IMG/VR virus record: IMGVR_UViG_3300005582_001108
Location: 1 to 20,697 of that record
Strand: one strand, 5' to 3'
Length of the DNA stretch: 20,697 nucleotides
Origin: a virus
Positions 1 to 18,044 of the stretch are shown one piece after another. Under the pieces are notes generated by a model that saw only the letters and a list, made by a program, of their open reading frames with translations, searched no databases and had not been told where the DNA came from. Numbering within the stretch: the stretch's first letter is position 1; the number at the start of each line of letters is the position of its first letter. The translations under genes were made by a program, and so were the position numbers.

Positions 1-287
1 ATCTCGCTTCCAAGATAAGACAGACCTGCGCTAAGAGCTATGTCCTCTAAGTCACCGCCCTTTAAGGCAGTCGTTGCTGACATAACATATGGGGCAGCTG
101 GCGGATACATTACGGACAAAACCATAGCCGCTGTACCTATCGGGTCTTCAACAGCCCTTTCAACTTGCTTTACAGCCTCCTGTAATACTGGCTCAACAAC
201 CTCTTCTGCCACAAACTCTATGACATCACCAGCAGCCTCAAATGGCGCTGTTACAACGTCTGCAACGAAACTAGCGACGGCTCCCAT
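1..287 (-). CDS. Partial hypothetical virion-associated protein (3' part beyond window)
   Basis: Open frame read leftward from ATG at 287 to the window edge without a stop (95 complete codons). It begins MGAVASFVADVVTAPFEAAG. The start is well supported: a GGGGGAG Shine-Dalgarno lies 7 nt upstream inside the end of the previous gene, whose TAA shares a base with this ATG (TAATG). The N-terminus is an Ala/Val/Glu-rich amphipathic helix. Around residues 55-75 there is a more hydrophobic stretch rich in Ala, Pro and Met. Such Ala/Gly-rich helical N-termini near the end of a short-tailed phage structural operon are often large internal or ejection proteins, but I recognise no domain. Role as an internal virion protein is inferred from position only. 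Confidence 0.7.
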   Translation of the reverse strand, partial: MGAVASFVADVVTAPFEAAGDVIEFVAEEVVEPVLQEAVKQVERAVEDPIGTAAMVLSVMYPPAAPYVMSATTALKGGDLEDIALSAGLSYLGSE

Positions 288-739
288 TATTTACTCCCCC
301 TAGGTTCGCCAAGTTTTATAGTGGCTGAGTATCCATCTCCTTCGGTACGCCTAATTGCGTAGCCCATCTTTGTTTCTGGTGGCTTAGACTTAAAGATTAT
401 CTTGAATAGTGACAATAGAGCTGGGTCTTGGAATTGCGTATACAGGGTATCAAAGCCAATGTTATAGGCAGCTGTAAGAAATGTACTTACGTTATTAATG
501 TAGTTACGTGCTGTGTCAGCGTTCAGGGGTCTGAATGTACCTATCCTGTCCTTGGCGTGGTGTATGATAAATATGGTATTGCCTTCTCTAATAGCCGTGG
601 TTCCCTTGGACTTAATCTCATTAATAATAGACGCATATGCGGTACCAACATCTAGTTGAACCCCAGTCTCTTGGATGGCAATCGTAATGATTGCATTGGT
701 GTCAAGCTCTTTTTGCTTACTGTCAACGACCTGTGCCAT
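287..739 (-). CDS. Conserved hypothetical phage protein, 150 aa
   Basis: Soluble alpha/beta-looking protein with no membrane segment. The sequence alternates short strands (residues about 51-60, NTIFIIHH) with helices, and the middle (about 69-100) reads like a helical bundle. The C-terminus is basic. The start ATG at 739 overlaps the TAA of the ketosynthase gene (TAATG), and a GGGAG Shine-Dalgarno sits 5 nt upstream inside the ketosynthase C-terminal codons, so the two genes are translationally coupled. I do not recognise the family with certainty. The layout, an 'adolescent' phage protein followed by a large Ala-rich protein, resembles the internal-protein region of short-tailed phages. A divergent acetyltransferase-like fold is conceivable but no motif proves it. 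Confidence 0.75.
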   Translation of the reverse strand: MAQVVDSKQKELDTNAIITIAIQETGVQLDVGTAYASIINEIKSKGTTAIREGNTIFIIHHAKDRIGTFRPLNADTARNYINNVSTFLTAAYNIGFDTLYTQFQDPALLSLFKIIFKSKPPETKMGYAIRRTEGDGYSATIKLGEPRGSK

Positions 740-1851
740 TACAACTCCCTGAAGATTGCGGCAGAGTAGATGTTACCCATACCAGCTGCCAAACTTAAAA
801 TTAACCCATCTGGGCTAGGTGCTTTATGCGAAAGAAATACCAAATCTGTCTCAGTTCTGTTGTCAATAGCTGGAACAAAGCCATTTTTCATGTCGTCCAA
901 TAGCAATAAAGTCTCTAATAATCCGCTACTACCCATAGTATGACCTATTTTTTGCTTGTATGACGTAGCAATGAAGTCGGGAATCATGGCAAGTAGTGCC
1001 GCAGACTCGGATGCGTTATTAGACGCTGTACCAGTTCCGTGCGCCTTGACTATCTTAATCTCACTAGCCTTTACATCAGCCATGTCTATAGCGCCCTGTA
1101 TAGCCTTCTTAAAGCCCTCTCCGTCCTCACGTTGACCGATGGCATTGGTAGACTGTTCTGACGCGCTGTATGCCCCTAGAAACTCGGCGTGTGGGGTGGT
1201 GCCTAGTATGTTGGTAGCTCTCTCGGATTCAAACACAGCTAATGCGGCTCCTTGACCTATCCTGAAGCCAAAGTTCTTGCTATCGAAGGCGGACGGCTTA
1301 ATTCCCTGTTGTTCCTGTTCCTCGGTCAAAACAGCTTTAGCTTCACCAAAGAACTCAAGTATGGCGTTAGATATGCCATCTTCTACCGTAAGGACTATGA
1401 CCCTATCAAATCCATAGAAACGGATTAAGGTCTGCACATCCATCATAACCTTCAGGCTAGAAGCACAGGCAGACGCGTCCGTCACAACTTGGTCTATCTC
1501 ACCAAATGACTGGGCTGTACGTCCAGCAAATACTTGAGTCAAGCTAAATGGCAAGAACTTGTAGTTGTATGACAGCTTATTGTCTGGGTAGTGGCGTGGA
1601 TTAATACCAGCAAAGTGGGCGTTACCACTAGCCAGAATGAATGCAGTCTTACCTACGTGGTTCTCCCTGAGATACTTGCACAGCTCTGGGTCAAGAACCT
1701 TTTCAGCTATCTTGTGTGGGACATAGAACAAGCCAGACTTAATCTTGGCGTAAATCTCTGGGAACCAATGCACTCTCTGTGGGTACACGACATCATCGAA
1801 TAGCTCTGCATTCGTTGTTGACAGTGACCTGTAGTGTGTTAGGTAAATCAT
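739..1851 (-). CDS. Phage-encoded beta-ketoacyl-ACP synthase (FabF/KAS-like condensing enzyme)
   Basis: Thiolase-fold condensing enzyme that would join an acyl chain on its active-site cysteine to a malonyl-ACP-type extender by decarboxylative Claisen condensation. All four catalytic residues of the KAS I/II class can be placed: Cys129 in TDASACASSL, His271 in AHGTGTASNN, and Lys299 and His304 in YKQKIGHTMGSSG, with the Lys five residues before the His as in FabB/FabF. Other family marks are GFRIGQGAALAVFE (about 195-208), Glu282 after the AHGTGT loop, and a C-terminal glycine loop SLAAGMGN (353-360). At 370 aa it is shorter than FabF (about 410). The glycine loop lacks the usual gatekeeper Phe of GFGGTN, which is Ala here. 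The ATG overlaps the TGA of the upstream acyl carrier protein (ATGA) and has no Shine-Dalgarno of its own, so translation probably depends on the ACP gene. Divergence from housekeeping FabF suggests a specialised substrate. Confidence 0.9.
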   Translation of the reverse strand: MIYLTHYRSLSTTNAELFDDVVYPQRVHWFPEIYAKIKSGLFYVPHKIAEKVLDPELCKYLRENHVGKTAFILASGNAHFAGINPRHYPDNKLSYNYKFLPFSLTQVFAGRTAQSFGEIDQVVTDASACASSLKVMMDVQTLIRFYGFDRVIVLTVEDGISNAILEFFGEAKAVLTEEQEQQGIKPSAFDSKNFGFRIGQGAALAVFESERATNILGTTPHAEFLGAYSASEQSTNAIGQREDGEGFKKAIQGAIDMADVKASEIKIVKAHGTGTASNNASESAALLAMIPDFIATSYKQKIGHTMGSSGLLETLLLLDDMKNGFVPAIDNRTETDLVFLSHKAPSPDGLILSLAAGMGNIYSAAIFREL

Positions 1852-2132
1852 TTAATGTAGTCTATTACGTCATCTATTGAGGTAGGTTCTTTAGTCTTGT
1901 GTGCCATCAGGAGGTCATATATCTCCTGTAGAGTAGTTGGCACCCATCCCTTGGATACTTCCTCGCTGACGCCATATACGTCAGTGAGGTACATCATCAT
2001 TACTAGTCCATCTAAACTGTCTATGCCTATATCCTCAAACGAGTCACTCATAGAGGTAGCTATGGCGTTCCTACAATGAGACGGTCTGGATGTCTTAGAT
2101 ACAGCATTAAATAGGTCAATAAAGTTAATCAT
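1848..2132 (-). CDS. Phage acyl carrier protein
   Basis: 94-aa ACP-family protein. The phosphopantetheine-attachment motif is clear: FEDIGIDSLDGLVMMMYL, with Ser39 in the GIDSLD context matching the bacterial GADSLD signature, followed by the hydrophobic helix II and an acidic segment (TDVYGVSEEV) as in the canonical partner-recognition helix. It is a little longer than AcpP (about 78 aa), with an unusual N-terminus containing RPSHCRN and a C-terminal IDDVIDYIK helix. It starts at an ATG overlapping the previous stop (ATGA) with AGGG about 5 nt upstream, and ends in an ATGA overlap with the ketosynthase gene. No phosphopantetheinyl transferase is visible in the window, so host AcpS would have to activate it. 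It is the obvious carrier for the adjacent condensing enzyme. Confidence 0.9.
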   Translation of the reverse strand: MINFIDLFNAVSKTSRPSHCRNAIATSMSDSFEDIGIDSLDGLVMMMYLTDVYGVSEEVSKGWVPTTLQEIYDLLMAHKTKEPTSIDDVIDYIK

Positions 2133-2392
2133 GCCGCCCTACTTATGTTAACTGTTAACACCAAAGCCTCAGCCCATTCATTCCAATTATCAAATGCAGA
2201 TGCGTCTGGCATACCTTCGTTGTTGAATATGTCAATAGCCTTGAGACCGTTAGCCCACCTCTTCCAGTCCGTGTCCTTGCTAGGTATCTCTAGTTGCTGT
2301 GCAGCAAACTGGTCACACATAATCTCTGCCCAATACTGGAAATCCATATGGCGTGGGTCAACTATTGGGGCGGTATTAATAGCCACGAACAT
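2129..2392 (-). CDS. Small acidic Trp-rich phage protein, 87 aa
   Basis: Begins MFVAINTAPIVDPRHMDFQ and has repeated Trp motifs (YWAEIM, DWKRWANGL, NWNEWAEAL) separated by about 25-30 residues, so it is probably a small helical protein with two or three similar Trp-containing helices. Similar short 'DPR...W..WA' proteins commonly follow the tail-nozzle gene in environmental short-tailed phages, though their function is unknown. The frame stays open upstream to a TTG at 2458 and an ATG at 2440, but those would overlap the nozzle gene by over 60 nt. The ATG at 2392 overlaps it by only 17 nt, although GGAG abuts this ATG too closely to be a good Shine-Dalgarno. The start is therefore uncertain. 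Its stop overlaps the ACP start (ATGA). Confidence 0.75.
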   Translation of the reverse strand: MFVAINTAPIVDPRHMDFQYWAEIMCDQFAAQQLEIPSKDTDWKRWANGLKAIDIFNNEGMPDASAFDNWNEWAEALVLTVNISRAA

Positions 2393-4379
2393 CTCCAAAG
2401 GTTGCGTTAAGCAGTAGCCTACCAACTTGGTAGTTGCCATTAAGCGTATTAGACACAAACTTTAGGCGCATCTCTCTACGCTGTTCCTTCATGTCAATCT
2501 TGTGTGTGTCTGGGTCGAATAAGTAAGGGCCTGTAGTCTCGTCGTCTGCTTGAGCATAGGGACGACCAGTTACGTAGCACTCCATCTCACCAACCTGAAC
2601 GAAGTCAGGCTCAATTCTTTCTACCCTAATCCATTTGTTCTCACCCATCATAGATGGCTGTGAAGGGCCTCCAGCTAACCAACCTAGGTCGTTAGTCTCA
2701 AAGAAACTTTCGATGGCTACCACAGCAATACCCTTAACAGAATTTACTCCAAACTCATGTTGCCACAGCGACACATAGCTCATAACGTAGGTAAGCGTAA
2801 TCTCAAAGTCACCACCAGCTGGTAGGGTTGGGCAAGTCAAGGTATCCCCTACCGTATAACCTAGACCACGAATAGCTATAATAACTTCCGTAACAACACC
2901 ACCAGTAACGGTAATGTCTGCGTATGCGCCAGTGCCAGTGCCACCAACTAATTCTGTAAGAGGGTAAACTCCATCGGTGTACCCAGAGCCAGCATTGCTT
3001 ATAGTAAATAGATTAACGGCTCCAATGTCATTGATTTCTGTGCCAGCATTTACAGGAAAGCGGAATACTTGGGAGAAGTATCCAGCAGAGCGCCTTGCTC
3101 CAACGGCAGTTCCAGCGTCATACCAACAATTCTCACGGATGTTGTAGATTATGCAATCGTCGCACTCTGTTGCATCTCCACTAGGAAAGAACCACCATAT
3201 CTCACCAAATCTAGGAACCTTAGTAGCGTATACCTTCTGTCTTTCATCGTAATTAAGATTGTCAAAGAAGTAATTCTGGTTCATGTTATTTGGGACTTCT
3301 TTTACTACACCGTTGTATAGCATGAACCTATCAACGCCAATCCAGTAATAGATACCATCGTACTCAATAACACATTGGCTAGACAGTATTGAAGACTGGC
3401 TAGATATAATGTCATAGCGCCAGTAGAAGGTAGATGCGGTAGCGCCTATAGTGACTGTGGTTGGCGTGTACGAAACCCTGACCAGAGAATCAAGAGTCCA
3501 AAAAAGACCAGACGGAGCATTTGAGCCGCCCCGTACTGGTAAACCTTGAACGACTTTAGTGGATGCTACGTTAGTTTCGTTAGCATCTGCCGACACCCAA
3601 TTATTTGTGTTACCTGCCGCACAGTTCTTTATTAATCCATTGTTGCCATATACGAATACGTATGGGTGTAGCACAACAACACCACCAGATACTGATATTT
3701 GGTTATCAAATGTGAATGTAGTTGGTGAAGTCTCGGTGCCAGTAACGGCGGCGGATAGATTAACCACAACCCCTGCCACAGATACAACGGTAGTTCCATC
3801 TGGGATGGATGCTCCAGTGACTAGCTGACCAGCTCCAATTAGGATGCTAGACGCGTCTAATGTTAGGAATGTGTCTGTATTAACGCACCCACCAATAGCT
3901 GTAAACACACCAATTGGAGACGCTGTTGTGCCAGTTATGTCACCACCAAGGACTGGGGTGTTGGTAGAGTTATTAATGTCAGACAGGTTTAATCCGGGGT
4001 GAGCCAACAGGGTCTCGTTGCCAGTACCTTGTGAGTCAAACAAGGAATCAAACTGCCATAAATTATCAGAGCTAGGGGTAAATCCAGATAGCGTAAAGTC
4101 AGATATGCCAGAGCCAACACCATCATTATTTATAGGCAAAACCTGAAGACCGTCAGCGTATCCGTTAAAAATATAATTGAAATTGTTTTGTGGATTAACG
4201 TAAATACCACGAGATGGCCCTGCCAAGTCTCCAACAATCTCTCTGAAGCCTAAAATCTTACGCGGTCTAGCACGTTGGAACCTAACCCAACGACCAGAGT
4301 TATAGAAGTTCTTGTCAAAGACGGTGCCGTCCCGTTGGATGCCGGGTTGTGTATCTAGTGCGAATACTTTAGCGGTCAC
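2376..4379 (-). CDS. Tail nozzle / packaged-DNA stabilisation protein (P22 gp10-, T7 gp12-like)
   Basis: 667-aa structural protein. The N-terminus (QPGIQRDGTVFD at 11-22, then GRWVRFQRARPRKILGF at 29-45) is the hallmark of a widespread family of beta-propeller tail-hub proteins that close the portal channel in short-tailed phages. The core has the expected Trp/Tyr-rich propeller strands (YYWIGVDRFMLYNG, EIWWFFPS, NCWYDAGT). Two segments look like small inserted beta domains: about 146-226 (Gly/Thr/Val-rich) and about 453-530 (SNAGSGYTDGVY and RGLGYTVGDTL, a GxGYxxGD repeat frequent in phage virion proteins). It ends YQVGRLLLNATFGDVRGY, typical for the family. The start is GTG, overlapping the upstream TGA (GTGA), with GGTGGAG 7 nt upstream. 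Placed after the adaptor and before the late small genes, as in P22-like gene orders. Confidence 0.75.
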   Translation of the reverse strand: MTAKVFALDTQPGIQRDGTVFDKNFYNSGRWVRFQRARPRKILGFREIVGDLAGPSRGIYVNPQNNFNYIFNGYADGLQVLPINNDGVGSGISDFTLSGFTPSSDNLWQFDSLFDSQGTGNETLLAHPGLNLSDINNSTNTPVLGGDITGTTASPIGVFTAIGGCVNTDTFLTLDASSILIGAGQLVTGASIPDGTTVVSVAGVVVNLSAAVTGTETSPTTFTFDNQISVSGGVVVLHPYVFVYGNNGLIKNCAAGNTNNWVSADANETNVASTKVVQGLPVRGGSNAPSGLFWTLDSLVRVSYTPTTVTIGATASTFYWRYDIISSQSSILSSQCVIEYDGIYYWIGVDRFMLYNGVVKEVPNNMNQNYFFDNLNYDERQKVYATKVPRFGEIWWFFPSGDATECDDCIIYNIRENCWYDAGTAVGARRSAGYFSQVFRFPVNAGTEINDIGAVNLFTISNAGSGYTDGVYPLTELVGGTGTGAYADITVTGGVVTEVIIAIRGLGYTVGDTLTCPTLPAGGDFEITLTYVMSYVSLWQHEFGVNSVKGIAVVAIESFFETNDLGWLAGGPSQPSMMGENKWIRVERIEPDFVQVGEMECYVTGRPYAQADDETTGPYLFDPDTHKIDMKEQRREMRLKFVSNTLNGNYQVGRLLLNATFGDVRGY

Positions 4380-5605
4380 GTAAACACTCCACCAGAAATA
4401 CCATTAACAAATGTACCATCCCCTTGAACGGTTAAACCAGTTGCAGTTAGGGACAGTCTGTTCACACCCAATACAGCAATATCAATCTCACCAGCACCTG
4501 ACCTCCAGATACCTGTGTTTGTTTCGTTGGCAAAGTTAATAGCTGGCGTTCCTACTGTTCCATCAATTAGATTGAGGGATGTAGCACCAGCCTGAACAGT
4601 ATTGGCATTAAAGAAGTCGGTACCATCACAAACCAATGAAGCAGTCTGTCCGGGTGGGATTGCGGCTGTATTACCAAATCCTGTGGTTACCGATAATGTA
4701 AATCCATTATCAGTCGTCTGGTTGCTAATTATGTACAGGTTAACAATAGGCAAATACACTACTGTTACATCAGATGTTAACGAGCCAACATACTCCTGAA
4801 TGATGGAACTGCTCTCGTTAGACGTAAGGTAATATGTACCACCAGTTACTGGCTTAACCAGATTAGTAAAGAAGAAAGTATTGCTCTGACCATATCCAAC
4901 AGAAATGTATTCTGTGCCAGTGCATATGATAAAGGCAGACTCGTCTGGATTAAATGACTTATCTACCAAGCCGTCAATAGTCTCGGCACCAGAGCAGTCA
5001 ATGGTAAGCGTTCCAGAGCCATTGTTCTTTAATATAAAGAACCAATTGTTCCCAAGAGTATTTGACAGTGGTAGGGTTGCCGTACCAGCGCCACTTGCCC
5101 AAATCTTGGTTTGCGCTCTATCGGTGTCCAGTAAAGTATATCCATTTGATATTGAAGATGTTGGGTGGCTTTGATTGAGAGTCGTAGAGATTGCAACCAA
5201 TCCCAAGCCAGCCAATAGAGAGGCGTCAGCAGATGATGTTCCTGCACCAAAGTCAATAATTCCCCAGACACCTGCTGTACTAGCATTGCTAGTCAGGTAT
5301 AGGTAAGAAGCCTTACCAGCTTCTACCGTTGCGATAACTCCGCCATCGAAGTTATTTACATCAAAGTCTATACCGCTTACGTTACGGATTAGGGCATCCT
5401 GACCAACCGATACTTGATTAGCTGTTGGCATGATAAGAACGCCAGTATCGCCAGTAATGTCCATAATCCTAGCGGCTGGGTTCTCTGTACCAGTAGCGTC
5501 AGAAGGCCATTGCAGTTGTACGTCGCCGTCTAGCGTATAGTCAGCATAGCTGACATCCGTTGGCAAAATAACGTCGCCCGAAAACGGGGATACAAAGGAT
5601 GTCAT
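4376..5605 (-). CDS. Beta-rich virion structural protein, 409 aa
   Basis: Starts MTSFVSPFSGDVILPTDVSY, an N-terminus I associate with structural proteins next to the nozzle gene in environmental short-tailed phages. The sequence is Gly/Thr/Ser/Asn-rich with regular beta-strand pattern and no membrane segment. A repeated scheme of strand-rich domains can be seen: about 26-120 (one domain, ending GVWGIIDFG), about 150-235 (ending CTGTEYISVGYG), and about 245-335, where a similar ending (VCDGTDFFN) recurs. The last 70 residues resemble fibre modules (GIWRSGAGEIDIAVLGVNRL) and end GISGGVFT. Start ATG overlaps the previous gene's stop. A tail-spike, fibre-anchor or decoration role is possible; only 'virion protein' is well supported. 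Confidence 0.65.
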   Translation of the reverse strand: MTSFVSPFSGDVILPTDVSYADYTLDGDVQLQWPSDATGTENPAARIMDITGDTGVLIMPTANQVSVGQDALIRNVSGIDFDVNNFDGGVIATVEAGKASYLYLTSNASTAGVWGIIDFGAGTSSADASLLAGLGLVAISTTLNQSHPTSSISNGYTLLDTDRAQTKIWASGAGTATLPLSNTLGNNWFFILKNNGSGTLTIDCSGAETIDGLVDKSFNPDESAFIICTGTEYISVGYGQSNTFFFTNLVKPVTGGTYYLTSNESSSIIQEYVGSLTSDVTVVYLPIVNLYIISNQTTDNGFTLSVTTGFGNTAAIPPGQTASLVCDGTDFFNANTVQAGATSLNLIDGTVGTPAINFANETNTGIWRSGAGEIDIAVLGVNRLSLTATGLTVQGDGTFVNGISGGVFT

Positions 5606-6237
5606 GTGTCTAGCACCGTGGCTTGTCTATCACCGATACGCTGAGTATCCTCTTGCTTCAGGATGCCCATAATTTGTGAATACTGAGCTTGCCACATAGG
5701 AATCCTGTCATCGTTTCTCAGGAAAGGCATAGCCTGTAGCAGAGAGCCATATAGCAATGCCTGTGGTGCGTATATGGTAAACCAGTTAGTCTGGTTAGAT
5801 GTGTCTAGTGGTTGGTTACGTTCGTAGTACAGAATCTCAAAGTCGTATGCCACATCTGGGGTTGGAGCCAATAACCAATGGGTATAGTCATAGTCTGCAT
5901 AGTACGCAGGGGTATCAGTAAGGGTCTCGTCAGGCCAATACTCTCTCAGGTATTCATACTTACGTAATAGGACTGGTTGCTTGCTTCCGTCTACGGTAAC
6001 ATTCATAGACACGGTCTTATGCCAACGTGCAGGCTTATTAACTACAGCCTCACCGATAACCATATTGCTCTCTACTACTGTGAGGTTTCCTAGGAACTTA
6101 ATCTCTGCGGCAATTACTTGTTCCGCAAGCATAATAAACAGAGGGATTTTTTCTATAGTAGCGACGTCATCACGCTCCAGATAGGACTGGACGTTTTCGA
6201 CTAGTGAATCGTAGGTCATTACCGATGCGACGGTCAT
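5602..6237 (-). CDS. Head-tail adaptor protein (SU10 adaptor / P22 gp4-like)
   Basis: 211 aa, helical with a beta middle. N-terminus MTYDSLVENVQSYLERDD, a central strand region with ARWHKTVSMNVTVDGSKQ, then YEYLREYWPDETLTDTPAYYADYD and a C-terminal YAPQALLYGSLLQAMPFL helix. This order (N-terminal helix, inserted beta domain, 'Y.P..LLYG.L..A.PFL' helix) is that of the adaptor family that binds the portal and receives the nozzle. The gene is directly upstream of the beta-rich protein and the nozzle, consistent with that role. AAAGGGA lies about 8 nt before the ATG. It comes right after the lysis genes rather than with the capsid genes. A second, larger adaptor-like protein lies at 16971-18044, so the division of labour is unclear. 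Confidence 0.75.
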   Translation of the reverse strand: MTVASVMTYDSLVENVQSYLERDDVATIEKIPLFIMLAEQVIAAEIKFLGNLTVVESNMVIGEAVVNKPARWHKTVSMNVTVDGSKQPVLLRKYEYLREYWPDETLTDTPAYYADYDYTHWLLAPTPDVAYDFEILYYERNQPLDTSNQTNWFTIYAPQALLYGSLLQAMPFLRNDDRIPMWQAQYSQIMGILKQEDTQRIGDRQATVLDT

Positions 6238-7243: not shown

Positions 7244-7486
7244 TCAGTTGCCATACCTTCTGTCTTCTTTGTCTGCTTTGCTATCCAACTTATCAAAAAT
7301 CTGCTTACACATAGTCTTGATAGAGTCTATGTCTCGATGATAATCCTCTTTGGCTATGTACATCCTAGGCAAATCCCTTACGTCGCTATCAAGTCTCTCA
7401 ACGGCTTTGGTGATGTTATTCAATACCCATCCACCCAAGAATGCGATTAATCCAGCGCCGATATTAAGAACGACCTGATAGTCCAT
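7244..7486 (-). CDS. Small membrane protein with coiled coil, lysis cassette (spanin- or holin-like)
   Basis: 80 aa. One N-terminal membrane segment (about 5-23, VVLNIGAGLIAFLGGWVL) is followed by a highly charged helix with heptad-like spacing (residues about 26-75). This N-terminal anchor plus coiled coil is the architecture of an inner-membrane spanin (Rz-like) but also of small accessory holins. No outer-membrane lipoprotein partner (lipobox) could be recognised next to or inside it, so the spanin assignment is weak. Start ATG shares a base with the stop of the 49-aa gene (TAATG), and the holin gene follows after 16 nt. Confidence 0.6.
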   Translation of the reverse strand: MDYQVVLNIGAGLIAFLGGWVLNNITKAVERLDSDVRDLPRMYIAKEDYHRDIDSIKTMCKQIFDKLDSKADKEDRRYGN

Positions 7487-7635
7487 TATTCAGCCTCCGT
7501 AGCAACAACGTCAAGTTGTTCTTTAGCCTCAGCCTGAAGGGCTGTTATCAATTGGAATACCTCTTGATAGGGACGGGCACCTAGATAGCCCATAACCTGA
7601 TTTAAGATTTGTACGGATATAGTAATTTTGTCCAT
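7486..7635 (-). CDS. Small conserved phage protein, 49 aa
   Basis: Short gene starting MDKITISVQILNQVMGYLGA and ending ATEAE. It is acidic and mostly helical, without a membrane segment. Support comes from a GGAAAG Shine-Dalgarno-like site about 7 nt upstream, exact TAATG coupling to the next lysis gene, and resemblance to the short 'MDKIT...VLGYLG.RPYQEV..LI' proteins I have seen in the same position in environmental phage genomes. Its function is unknown; a regulator or partner of the lysis proteins is possible. It opens the lysis cassette. Confidence 0.7.
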   Translation of the reverse strand: MDKITISVQILNQVMGYLGARPYQEVFQLITALQAEAKEQLDVVATEAE

Positions 7636-7675
7636 TTAGTTCTTTCCGTCTGCAAATACGTTAATGAAAACTGTG

Positions 7676-8425
7676 TTATTTAAAAAACGCCATTGGGCAT
7701 TTGGATTGCTTATCTATTATCTTCTTACGCTTCTCATAGAAATTAGTAAAGGACTGTGTGTAACTAGTAGAACTATTCAACCTATTCCACTCTTCTGCTG
7801 AAATTAGATGAGATTTTATAACCACATCCCTCTCTGTCAATGGTATTAGTGTGGCTATAGGTGTTCCAGCATCTATACTGATTGTTGATGCAACTTTGGG
7901 TACAAACATATTGATGTTGGATGTATGTTGATATTTGTAATTGACTATAGCTGGTACATTTTTATAGTCATTCCACCTGTCCATCTTGTTATAGAACGAA
8001 TCAGTGAAATAGAAATTAACCCCTGTCTTCTCTGTAATCAGCCAAGGTGAAGCAAGTTTGAGATGGATGTAAGAGTTTATTTCTGGAAGCTGTCTGCTGT
8101 TATGTTGCACAATCTCTGGGGATTGGTCTGCTGAATATTGATATGCCCAACTTCCATCTGCATTGGTGTTAATAATTAAATCACTCCATAATGGAATAGA
8201 GAATGAATTCCTGTATAAGTCTAAGACGCCAGAGCAGGTTTTGATTGTCGGATGTTTAATTAGTATCCCGTGTTTATTTACCTCTGGATATGTTGCTGGC
8301 ATCTTTTTGAACCAAGATGGAAATTTATTCGTGCCTTTGTCGATTGGGTACAGCCTATGCACACCGGGTATACTAGTGAATACATCAACCATAATCTTTG
8401 TACGCTTGAACCAGAATGAAATCAT
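7676..8425 (-). CDS. Protein of unknown function, resembling a family in T4-like marine phages
   Basis: About 249 aa. Features: VDVFTSIPGVHRLYPI near the N-terminus, FPSWFKKMP, TIKTCSGVLDLY, IPLWSDLII, then LKLASPWLITEKTGVNFYF and a C-terminal basic helix. I recall a family in T4-like cyanophages with the same 'P.WFK.MP...K.CPG..D......IP.W.D' and 'SPW.I.T..G' landmarks, with no known function. No catalytic motif is evident. Start is uncertain: ATG at 8425 has AAGG 8 nt upstream. ATG at 8449 would overlap the previous gene, and ATG at 8392 fits the apparent family N-terminus. The gene is clearly AT-richer than the fibre genes, as is its neighbour, suggesting they arrived together. Possibly a tail-fibre-associated or modification protein. 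Confidence 0.7.
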   Translation of the reverse strand: MISFWFKRTKIMVDVFTSIPGVHRLYPIDKGTNKFPSWFKKMPATYPEVNKHGILIKHPTIKTCSGVLDLYRNSFSIPLWSDLIINTNADGSWAYQYSADQSPEIVQHNSRQLPEINSYIHLKLASPWLITEKTGVNFYFTDSFYNKMDRWNDYKNVPAIVNYKYQHTSNINMFVPKVASTISIDAGTPIATLIPLTERDVVIKSHLISAEEWNRLNSSTSYTQSFTNFYEKRKKIIDKQSKCPMAFFK

Positions 8426-8435
8426 AAGGAAAACC

Positions 8436-9185
8436 TTAGATGACAGCAAAACTTTGGATTGGTTGTCCTATAGTTCTAATATCTACACCAGCAGGGACAG
8501 ATTCAGGGCTTATAATATCCCCACCATCATCTCTAGCAGCGTGTATACAATAAGCAACAGTGTTATCCTCAAGTGCAGTAAAATGGTGTATTTTATCTTT
8601 AACAATATATATCATAACTGGTGCTTTAAAAATAGTTATAACTCCGTTTACTGAACATTCAACAGACCCACTTGCCAATAATGTAGTGTGGTCGTGAGTG
8701 TGCATATGTGGATTATTTTTATTACCAGCTTTCTTAAAATTCATTTGGCGAACAAAAACATTAGATATAAACCCTATTGAGGTAATTGGGCTATTCTCAT
8801 CAAGTGGGAAATTTTCCACAACAAACTCTGTTATGAATATTCCGTCCTTCTCCACTATTGTCCAAGTGCCTTGGATAATATCTGCCATAAACTCATCCAT
8901 TAATACTTGTTTTCTTATTTTTGCGGCAGATAAAGAGGTAAATGATTCGTACAGACCTGTTGTATGAATAAATACCCTATAATCCCCATCTTCTGGGTCG
9001 TTAACTAAATCAGCACTACTCCATGCAAAATCATTGCCAACTGCGACAACCTTGGCGATAACAAACCTATCAGATTCTTGCAAAATGTACGAAGCACTAA
9101 TTTCAGCAAGTCTTGCGTTGGCAAATTCTTCCGTATTAACTTGTTCTATAAGACCAGTTAAAGCATTTTTAAATTGATATATCAT
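8436..9185 (-). CDS. Fibre-chaperone-like / cupin fusion protein
   Basis: 249 aa in two parts. Residues 1-100 (MIYQFKNALTGLIEQVN, EEFANARLAEI, NDPEDGDYRVF) look like the small tail-fibre assembly/tape proteins found beside fibre genes. The C-terminal part, about 105-220, has a double-stranded beta-helix signature: HMHTHDH (His160, 162, 164 and 166) with SGSVECSVNG as the first cupin motif, and KDKIHHF (His200/201) as the second, followed by YCIHAARDDG. The histidines could bind a metal. The order of motifs is that of small single-cupin domains, whose members range from dioxygenases to isomerases and non-enzymatic sugar binders, so substrate cannot be assigned. ATG overlaps the stop of the adhesin gene. 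Composition is AT-rich. The cupin call is firm; the fusion role is inferred. Confidence 0.75.
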   Translation of the reverse strand: MIYQFKNALTGLIEQVNTEEFANARLAEISASYILQESDRFVIAKVVAVGNDFAWSSADLVNDPEDGDYRVFIHTTGLYESFTSLSAAKIRKQVLMDEFMADIIQGTWTIVEKDGIFITEFVVENFPLDENSPITSIGFISNVFVRQMNFKKAGNKNNPHMHTHDHTTLLASGSVECSVNGVITIFKAPVMIYIVKDKIHHFTALEDNTVAYCIHAARDDGGDIISPESVPAGVDIRTIGQPIQSFAVI

Positions 9186-15989: not shown

Positions 15990-16331
15990 TTAGGGACTCA
16001 GATTTAAGTTGTCAAGATTACCATTATCTTCAGGCGTTTGCGTGTTCTGTTCTGGAGAAATAACAAGCTGTGCATTGCCAGTAGTAACAAGTGCATTAGG
16101 GTCAAGCGCCACACTAACGTCTGGGCGTGGGAACCTTAAATTAATACGTTCTGTCTTACGTGCTGGTAAGCGATAGGGGTCGAAGTTATCCTTACATCCC
16201 TCCTCGCATACCCGAAGTCCGGGGAAGTTGGGGTCAGGCCCTAGCGTTACAAACGCCCTCTTAACCTTACAGCGGTCACAAACTCCTATCGCTAAAGATG
16301 TAAGACCACGTGTATCAAGAAATATGGGCAT
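15990..16331 (-). CDS. Cys4 (zinc-ribbon-like) phage protein, 113 aa
   Basis: 113 aa beginning MPIFLDTRGLTSLAIGVC. Four cysteines (Cys18 and Cys21 in CDRC, Cys42 and Cys46 in CEEGC) form a plausible zinc site. Then comes FDPYRLPARKTERINLRFPRPD, an N-terminal/central pattern I recognise from small proteins adjacent to fibre or adaptor genes in environmental phages. The C-terminal 40 residues are acidic and disordered-looking, with several Gln/Asn/Glu. The N-terminal codons overlap the 3' end of the HNH gene by 17 nt, so its ribosome-binding site lies inside that gene. Function unknown; a structural or assembly role is more likely than DNA binding given its neighbours. Confidence 0.7.
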   Translation of the reverse strand: MPIFLDTRGLTSLAIGVCDRCKVKRAFVTLGPDPNFPGLRVCEEGCKDNFDPYRLPARKTERINLRFPRPDVSVALDPNALVTTGNAQLVISPEQNTQTPEDNGNLDNLNLSP

Positions 16332-16950
16332 AATTTACCACTTTGGAAATAAATCCCATAGAGCATCTTACAATGTCTTTTATATCATTGTATTTTAAAC
16401 CATCAAGTCTCAACTCTAAAACTTTTTGTGCCTTGATTGCAGATTTTTGCCTTACCGACTCTGCGCTTTTTTCTTGTGCTTTTGCTCTATTAATTCTAAT
16501 GATATTTGCATACTCAATATCATTTGCAAATCTAACTTTAAATTCTTGACCTGCCTTGGCCTGATATCCTTCTTGACGATTTTTGGTAGCACTTGATTTT
16601 ACTTTATTCATGTAATTATCAAATACAGGGTCTGACTGTCTTTTTAAAGCAATTGCTTTTTCACGTTCTATTGGAGCAACTCTTCTGGCAACCTCAAACA
16701 TCCTTGCATTAACATACCTATTGCCGCCTTTCATAATAACAAGAGCTTGCCACATTACTCCACCGTGCATCTTGGCTAATAACATATGGGCAATAAAATG
16801 CTCCCTAGATGTTAGGGTTACAAGATTATCACTATTATCTGAACCACCTAATGCCCTAGGCATAATATGATGCTTTTCAACATACCCATCTGGACGGGTA
16901 CGCCCCTTTGCTTTAGCAATAAGACGATGGTATGTTAAAATATGATTCAT
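16315..16950 (-). CDS. Free-standing HNH homing endonuclease
   Basis: 211 aa. HNH signature at about 25-56: EKHHIMPRALGG (His27/His28), SDNLVTLTSREHF (Asn42, His51) and a further His55. The middle is a long basic linker. Residues 178-207 (VLELRLDGLKYNDI, IVRCSMGFISKVVN) look like a helix-turn-helix of the kind found at the end of intron- or intergenically encoded homing nucleases. Such enzymes cut an allele lacking the gene and spread by repair. The coding region is visibly AT-richer than both neighbours. It sits in the 20-nt gap after the adaptor gene and overlaps the next gene's start by 17 nt. It is an invader in the structural operon rather than part of virion assembly. Confidence 0.9.
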   Translation of the reverse strand: MNHILTYHRLIAKAKGRTRPDGYVEKHHIMPRALGGSDNSDNLVTLTSREHFIAHMLLAKMHGGVMWQALVIMKGGNRYVNARMFEVARRVAPIEREKAIALKRQSDPVFDNYMNKVKSSATKNRQEGYQAKAGQEFKVRFANDIEYANIIRINRAKAQEKSAESVRQKSAIKAQKVLELRLDGLKYNDIKDIVRCSMGFISKVVNYAHIS

Positions 16951-16970: not shown

Positions 16971-18044
16971 TTACCTTGTGTAAACGGAAATATTGGGAGC
17001 CCAGTAGATAGGCGACTTGTCGCGCTCCTCCTGCTCAGCCTCATTAAGATACTGTACAGCCATTTTCTCTAGGTACTGAATCCTATCCAAACCCACCTGT
17101 GGTAGCTCTAGGCTCATCCTGTGAGACAGGTTCATCAAGACAGCCTCGTACCAACGCTGAGGTATCTCTAGTTCGTCTGTGAGAGCGCCAACGTCCTCTA
17201 TCTGGCGTGAGTACCACACTGTCATCTGCACGAAGGCATCTGATGGGGTAGGCCAAAGATACACGGTAGGCAAAGGTATTGTCCTATCGAACCAGTATTG
17301 GAATGGCTGATTGGCTGTGAAATTCTTGTTGGGTAGGTTAGTGTAGTCGTCACGGTTGAGTCGTGACATTTGTAGCTCTGTGCTGTTATTGCCAAAATAC
17401 AGCTCTCTCAGGCTCAACGTAGTACCGCCTGTAGCCCTCATCCGATAGTACAAAACATTCTGTCCGGGGTCTATATCTTGCCATACCCACTCATTGTCTG
17501 AGACTGCTACGTCAGTTCCAGTGTAAAGGTTGTTCCATGTACTGCCATCTGTAGAGAATTCGTATACATAGTTCAATACAGCACTACCGCCTCCAGCCAC
17601 ATAAGGGAGTATTCCTATAGAGCCAATGTACTGAGGATTGTTTGTGCCGTAATTGACTGCGATGTTGCCATTCGCTGAGTTCTGTACGCAGAAGGTTGAA
17701 GTGTCACCATCGTACACATTGGCTACTACACCACCAGCAGAGGTAGTATATTGCCCTGTTGGGCGTTCCATGGTGCGGTACAGCACATTCAAGGCATCAA
17801 CTGAGCCTTTGGGTAGGTTGTATATGTAACGGTTTGGGGTTAGTCCTATAACCTCTTTGTTTATAGCCCAGTATTGGATGCCGATATTAATCAGGCTAGA
17901 TAGGAAGAAGTACAGGGATTCACGAGCTGATAGAACTTGCTCAGAGGTCAGCTCTTCAGCTAGCTTTCCACAACGCCTAGCCCCATGGTCTATGAGCTTC
18001 TGAACATTGATTACCGTTGTGCCAACTGTGCCTGAGTAAGCCAT
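16971..18044 (-). CDS. Adaptor / gp4-like head-completion protein with inserted discoidin-like domain
   Basis: 357 aa. The outer parts match a large environmental-phage adaptor family. N-terminus MAYSGTVGTTVINVQKLID with ESLYFFLSSLINIGIQYWAI (42-61) and RYIYNLPKGSVDALNVLYR (72-90); the family then continues at about 222-357 (LQMSRLNRDDYTNLPNK, YLWPTPSD, WYEAVLMNLSHRM). About 98-219 is an extra segment with DGDTSTFC, EFSTDGSTWNNLYTG and LYYRMRATGG, the order of an F5/8 type C (discoidin, sugar-binding) domain. It would protrude from the neck. The protein probably joins the portal to the tail. It is the second adaptor-like protein in the window besides that at 5602-6237. Start ATG; gap of 53 nt upstream. 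Confidence 0.75.
   Translation of the reverse strand: MAYSGTVGTTVINVQKLIDHGARRCGKLAEELTSEQVLSARESLYFFLSSLINIGIQYWAINKEVIGLTPNRYIYNLPKGSVDALNVLYRTMERPTGQYTTSAGGVVANVYDGDTSTFCVQNSANGNIAVNYGTNNPQYIGSIGILPYVAGGGSAVLNYVYEFSTDGSTWNNLYTGTDVAVSDNEWVWQDIDPGQNVLYYRMRATGGTTLSLRELYFGNNSTELQMSRLNRDDYTNLPNKNFTANQPFQYWFDRTIPLPTVYLWPTPSDAFVQMTVWYSRQIEDVGALTDELEIPQRWYEAVLMNLSHRMSLELPQVGLDRIQYLEKMAVQYLNEAEQEERDKSPIYWAPNISVYTR

Follow-up and report, generated by a model that had tools for sequence, protein, structure and literature searches.

Introduction

In phage T7, the gene for gp13 is found between those for gp12 and gp14-16, and the GNAT-fold protein dealt with here likewise occupies a place between the nozzle and the internal/ejection proteins. 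GNATs encoded beside internal virion proteins have been described in cobaviruses, where they were likened to T7 gp13 (PMC6775973), and CRP-901 possesses a GNAT at the same position, also beside internal virion proteins, so that a GNAT at this place represents a known pattern. An acyl carrier protein (ACP) or a β-ketoacyl-ACP synthase (KAS) at that place has been neither described nor found in T7, the cobaviruses and CRP-901.

Two further systems are close enough to be compared. The RtxC/HlyC toxin-activating acyltransferases resemble the phage system in idea, since a membrane-active protein encoded next door is acylated from acyl-ACP, and the RtxC acyltransferases have the GNAT fold, lack the CoA-contacting elements and use acyl-ACP as the donor (PMC8339906). 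No match to PF02794 (RtxC/HlyC) was, however, found among 19 members of the phage 150-aa family, and the lysine acceptor is not part of the phage evidence. We know of no dedicated KAS in the RtxC system. The second comparison concerns FeeM and the acyl-homoserine-lactone (AHL) synthases, which have the GNAT fold in common with the phage 150-aa protein; N-acyl amino acid synthases have been described as users of acyl-ACP (PMC8762209). The structural rank of these enzymes is weak, a sequence match is lacking and, unlike the phage protein, they have no virion context. The literature searched yielded neither a phage with an ACP and a KAS as lineage-wide genes of a virion operon nor anything relevant on acylated virion proteins. 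To our knowledge, no phage has been known to carry a carrier protein and a condensing enzyme in this manner. The newness of the locus described below lies in the system, each of its proteins belonging by fold to a known superfamily.

Gene order at the locus

The window, i.e. the whole stretch of DNA analysed, is a virus record of 20,697 bases and represents a fragment of a phage genome. The genes of interest are located on the minus strand and follow one another, in the direction of transcription, as an SU10-type head-tail adaptor (5602..6237, 211 aa; PF24175, E 5.3e-25), a 409-aa protein, a nozzle/stabilisation-type virion protein (2376..4379, 667 aa; phrog_3287, virion structural protein, E 1.5e-21), a small W-rich protein (2129..2392), the ACP (1848..2132, 94 aa), the KAS (739..1851, 370 aa), a 150-aa protein (287..739) and the beginning of an ejection-type protein (3..287), whose gene is cut by the window end after 95 N-terminal residues. 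The nozzle homologue in the complete GenBank phage MW202545.1, in which the gene order is the same, is annotated as 'phage stabilization protein'. The small W-rich protein (the '109-aa' gene, the start of which is put near 2392 by its homologues) forms the constant flank of the cassette site: an HMM places it after the nozzle in almost every nozzle-scan locus that includes that DNA. For the product of 3..287, the role of an ejection protein is suggested by the position of its gene.

As read from the sequence, ATGA overlaps join the 109-aa gene to the ACP and the ACP to the KAS, and TAATG overlaps join the KAS to the 150-aa gene and the latter to the next ORF; all these genes are therefore likely to be translationally coupled. 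The gene order and the overlaps place ACP-KAS within a late virion operon, in agreement with an earlier sequence-only reading of the same DNA. The two ORFs, their ATGA overlap and the residues given there (Ser39 and Cys129/His271/Lys299/His304) were found exactly as it had described them in the sequence and, for the KAS residues, in the alignment with FabF.

Elsewhere in the window, an HNH endonuclease-like gene (16315-16950), with weak, sub-threshold Pfam matches, is situated within the tail-gene region and is probably a homing-type insertion. The stretch 16971-18044 exhibits an F5/8 type C (discoidin) domain together with a weak SU10-adaptor match and is thus a second adaptor-like gene besides that at 5602-6237. 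Between the tail-fibre genes and the lysis region, there are two overlapping genes (7676-9185), one belonging to phrog_7084 (E 2.7e-21, unknown) and the other giving a weak cupin match.

The acyl carrier protein and the ketosynthase

The 94-aa protein gave weak matches to PF00550 (E 0.003; 18.2 bits, narrowly under the gathering score of 20.8) and TIGR00517 (E 1.4e-4). It shares with the family PF00550 the Asp-Ser-Leu/Met site, the conserved helix II and a similar size, and differs from it in its weak score, in having a PHROG of its own (phrog_28189, unknown function, E 2.5e-5) and in occurring always with the KAS. The phosphopantetheine site corresponds to Ser39 within GIDSLD, Asp38-Ser39 being invariant in 55 of 55 relatives, while the rest of the protein goes down to about 27-35% identity. 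Judged from these features, the protein is a weak but real ACP, and its conversion to the holo form is predicted.

The KAS was recognised by both PF02801 (1.6e-16) and PF00109 (3.9e-8) above their gathering scores. The score against the NCBIfam FabF model TIGR03150 (3e-30, 105.1 bits) is well under the curated cut-off of 493.75 and places the protein outside the FabF equivalog. In the alignment, Cys164/His304/Lys336/His341 of E. coli FabF (Met counted) correspond to Cys129/His271/Lys299/His304 of the phage KAS, and this Cys-His-Lys-His quartet is invariant in all 53 relatives. The AlphaFold model (pLDDT 90.8) has its best PDB matches in the actinorhodin ketosynthase (1tqy) and FabF (E about 1e-21). 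By its modelled thiolase fold and its active site, the protein would belong with the elongating KAS I/II enzymes, and condensing activity is predicted. The fold and active site are thus common to FabF/KAS II and the type II polyketide ketosynthases, whereas the phage KAS is distinguished by its length (about 370 aa vs about 412 aa in FabF/KAS II), by its first ~95 residues being unmatched by sequence, by Met358 in place of the FabF gatekeeper Phe and by its location in a virion operon.

Purifying selection is evident from the dN/dS values of 0.016-0.116 obtained in eight pairs for the ACP, KAS and GNAT genes; the invariant Asp-Ser of the ACP and the KAS quartet, taken with these low values, therefore indicate that both proteins are under selection for function. 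That the two look catalytically competent had already been stated from the single sequence, and the invariance among their relatives is in line with it.

The sequence-only reading had also suggested a tree of ketosynthases. The tree prepared here covers, of the enzymes it named, FabB and FabF, both from E. coli, together with sampled bacterial KAS proteins, and the phage KAS forms in it one long-branched clade apart from all of them. When two phyla were sampled widely (148 and 398 genomes), the best cellular matches were ordinary KAS proteins at about 100 bits, compared with about 600 for the phage members, the phage contig L074 excepted. The phage KAS therefore does not look like a recent acquisition from a host. 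Contigs of cellular genomes gave two matches to the KAS, one at 27% (an ordinary cellular KAS) and one at 57%; a cellular origin of the latter was rejected, L074 (JAGYJQ010000016.1) being a phage contig in a Balneolaceae MAG. FabF-like matches at 23-28% identity in unannotated records of Listeria, Staphylococcus and other 'phages' are presumably bacterial DNA.

It should be noted that the L074 phage carries the full trio, its host link to Balneolaceae being uncertain because of binning, and that, instead of the W-rich protein, it encodes another small one (7361-7708) in which W/F...HxxxH motifs are repeated. In MW202545.1, the KAS annotated in GenBank is truncated, starting at 23381; the open frame and the homology reach 23537 (22437-23537).

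The third member of the cassette

For the 150-aa family, structure was used because Pfam gave no match and the PHROGs no convincing one. The AlphaFold2 model, built with 36 phage sequences (pLDDT 91.5), has the order helix-helix-three strands-helix-strand-helix-two strands, and all 50 PDB matches listed for it are acetyl- or acyltransferases of the GNAT fold, RimI being superimposed with a Z-score of 11.2 and an rmsd of 3.3 Å over 123 residues. RtxC structures are absent among the PDB matches listed, an absence that speaks neither for nor against a relation. The pyrophosphate loop for CoA binding, R/QxxGxG/A, expected after β4, is absent at that place in 36 of 36 sequences, with two matches elsewhere in the sequence; T7 gp13, by contrast, keeps an RxxGxA motif. 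A comparison with hhalign detected no relation between the family and T7 gp13 (E 0.16) or CRP-901 gp34, a weak test with single sequences on the other side; there was no Pfam match for the T7 gp13 family (PF11090/phrog_308) either, and the position agrees.

The sequence-only reading had seen structural-type genes on both sides of ACP-KAS; this does not hold for the downstream neighbour, which, given its predicted GNAT fold, is therefore better read as a putative, possibly acyl-ACP-dependent, transferase, although a fold alone shows no activity. The cassette should therefore be regarded as ACP-KAS-GNAT, with the gene of a predicted ejection protein immediately downstream. Two things had been missed earlier, namely this third member (287-739), which supplies a plausible transferase, and the conservation of the N-terminus, a possible acceptor, in the protein encoded next.

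Distribution and linkage

Relatives at 57-100% identity were found in 71 viral contigs by a scan of viral contigs, and a profile scan raised the number of contigs encoding a relative to at least 593. The cassette belongs to a large family of uncultured aquatic phages of a podovirus-like lineage, and this family is abundant in viromes. After removal of duplicate KAS sequences, the ACP is upstream of the KAS in 137 of 137 distinct loci with enough upstream DNA, and the 150-aa GNAT gene adjoins the KAS in 129 of 129 with enough downstream DNA, so that the co-occurrence count which had been proposed earlier came out without exception. An independent scan with the GNAT gene as the query found ACP-KAS directly upstream in 74/74 loci having upstream DNA. 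Host contamination or a chimeric contig, the latter named earlier as what might overturn the idea, was ruled out by the number of these contigs, by the constant flanks of 145 distinct KAS sequences and by the complete phage MW202545.1.

Other fatty-acid families were looked for with Pfam among the 54 proteins of a related 53-kb genome, and none was present. The host FabD, FabG and FabZ, together with a host phosphopantetheinyl transferase, would therefore be needed to complete the cycle, as had been expected.

Probable losses of the cassette

The Caulobacter phages RW, KcrB, RLK and GB2A share with the cassette-bearing phages the portal (47%), the nozzle (42%) and the small W-rich protein. Phage RW lacks all three cassette genes, its nozzle gene being followed by that of the small protein and then by that of an ejection-type protein. 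Both Caulobacter and roseobacters are among the hosts of distant relatives of the trio phages. The nozzle scan gave 80 loci; where 2.6 kb or more of downstream DNA was available, 42 had no cassette gene, eight had the trio and two (L333 and L334) had the GNAT gene alone. When all 255 scored loci are taken together, the trio is present in 210, none of its genes in 43 and GNAT alone in two, counts that include repeated contigs and become 52/15/1 for 68 dereplicated nozzles. The pattern is nested: neither ACP nor KAS occurs without the other, and ACP-KAS never occurs without GNAT among the scored loci. Both KAS and ACP were also absent from the whole records of eleven sampled trio-less or GNAT-only phages.

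In trees of the nozzle and of the adaptor (5602..6237, the second neighbour gene so analysed), the trio-less group is found among the trio phages, and trio phages are also the sisters of the GNAT-only pair (supports of 100 and 98, respectively); it should be pointed out that both are 'quick' trees with long-branch warnings in which the root was not inferred. Since the GNAT-only pair stands beside trio phages, ACP-KAS was probably lost and GNAT kept. Read most simply, the trio would be old and would have disappeared entirely at least once, while on one occasion ACP-KAS would have been lost with GNAT retained, and ACP-KAS thus seems to depend on GNAT, not the reverse. Each phage of the pair measures 53 kb and has only the GNAT-fold gene left; despite 98% identity between their nozzles, the N-termini of their next proteins are strongly different.

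The protein encoded downstream

The ejection-type protein of the window starts with MGAVASFVADVV and is the candidate acyl acceptor; its complete relatives have hundreds of residues (271-807 aa in most loci), and a tblastn search of phage records, with the complete ejection protein as the query, gave no match. A start of the type M[SGAT][AGVSI][VIL] was observed in 113 of 117 distinct N-termini following the trio, compared with 0 of 38 in trio-less phages, a contrast that reflects two or three evolutionary events and was counted in the loci in which the motif had been noticed. In the 117 N-termini, residue 2 is S in 75, G in 36, A in three, T in two and F in one. The start continues into an amphipathic sequence of the VGDVVEAVGDVV type, and residues 2-31 are hydrophobic with the trio (mean +1.0 vs -0.5 without it), the trio-less N-termini being hydrophilic and proline-rich. 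In the GNAT-only pair, the starts are changed to MGWVKFR and MGLFSWV. Such a conserved N-terminus would be suitable for acylation at that end of the protein, and RimI acts as an N-terminal acetyltransferase. The trio-less proteins encoded after the small W-rich gene align with their trio counterparts over a short C-terminal stretch only, so that the contrast may arise from the genes being different and not from a change in an acceptor site.

Possible roles of the cassette

Among the options raised earlier, acylation of a virion protein fits best, and that the ACP-KAS-GNAT cassette serves this purpose, the acceptor probably being the adjoining ejection protein, is in our opinion about evenly balanced between right and wrong. 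As to its substrate and chemistry, i.e. the loading of the ACP with phosphopantetheine, the nature of the chain, its transfer and the acceptor, we infer the following course. Translation of the cassette would take place late, along with that of the ejection proteins; the phage ACP would be loaded at Ser39 by the host phosphopantetheinyl transferase, the KAS would join an acyl primer to malonyl-ACP by condensation and the host FabD/FabG/FabZ would finish the chain, leaving a defined acyl group on the phage ACP. The GNAT-fold protein, devoid of the CoA loop, may then transfer this group from the phage ACP to a virion protein, for which the product of the adjoining ejection gene is the likeliest candidate. 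Several points weigh against acylation: the GNAT-fold protein, matching no Pfam family, might be a structural relic, the N-terminus contrast may come from a different gene, ACP-KAS has to rely on the host for a reductase and a dehydratase, and the product could be a free metabolite. A more specific form, in which ACP and KAS would build a particular chain for a dedicated viral lipidation, the ACP-dependent GNAT acylating the N-terminus of the amphipathic ejection protein (Ser/Gly/Ala after removal of Met) and thereby aiding entry into or crossing of the host membrane during DNA delivery, is offered tentatively and, taken with all its details, is rather doubtful.

The free product just mentioned could be a small N-acyl compound of the acyl amino acid or acyl-homoserine-lactone type, made from phage acyl-ACP by the GNAT and acting late on the host or its neighbours. 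Among the Foldseek matches of the 150-aa model are two GNAT-fold synthases, TofI (an AHL synthase; 3p2h, E 9e-4) and FeeM (an N-acyl amino acid synthase, of the kind using acyl-ACP; 2g0b, E 1.3e-3); these two, however, are outranked by CoA-dependent GNATs, RimI among them, the cassette keeps strictly to ejection genes instead of lysis or early ones, and the unusually conserved N-terminus of the following protein does not speak for such a synthase, which makes it unlikely.

Less probable again is the idea of auxiliary metabolic genes (AMGs) that would raise fatty-acid elongation in the host or, as had been considered earlier, alter its envelope lipids near lysis. AMGs are usually sporadic and host-like. 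There are reports of fabF, fabG and acpP as AMGs in roseobacter prophages (PMC8224337) and of fab genes in marine and lake viromes (PMC10653327, PMC12783922), but the present cassette is lineage-wide, its synteny is strict (129/129 and 137/137) with the GNAT-fold protein always attached, and its KAS, a separate clade with cellular matches at about 100 instead of about 600 bits, has no close cellular relative in the genomes sampled; the idea is therefore improbable. The least probable is a structural or chaperone role, with the ACP, KAS and GNAT-fold proteins as virion or assembly parts in which catalysis no longer matters: the operon position, the missing CoA loop and the labelling of the family of T7 gp13, found at the same position, as internal virion or probable scaffold protein would agree with it, but the catalytic residues of two separate proteins are invariant where most other positions vary, and such a role would have no need of the ACP serine.

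Significance

We know of no earlier phage-encoded pathway of virion lipidation, so that the cassette would represent the first one if it acylates an ejection protein. Were this true, it would form a parallel to the myristoylated capsid proteins of animal viruses as well as to the activation of RTX toxins, and it would provide a concrete lead on the function of the proteins found at the T7 gp13 position.
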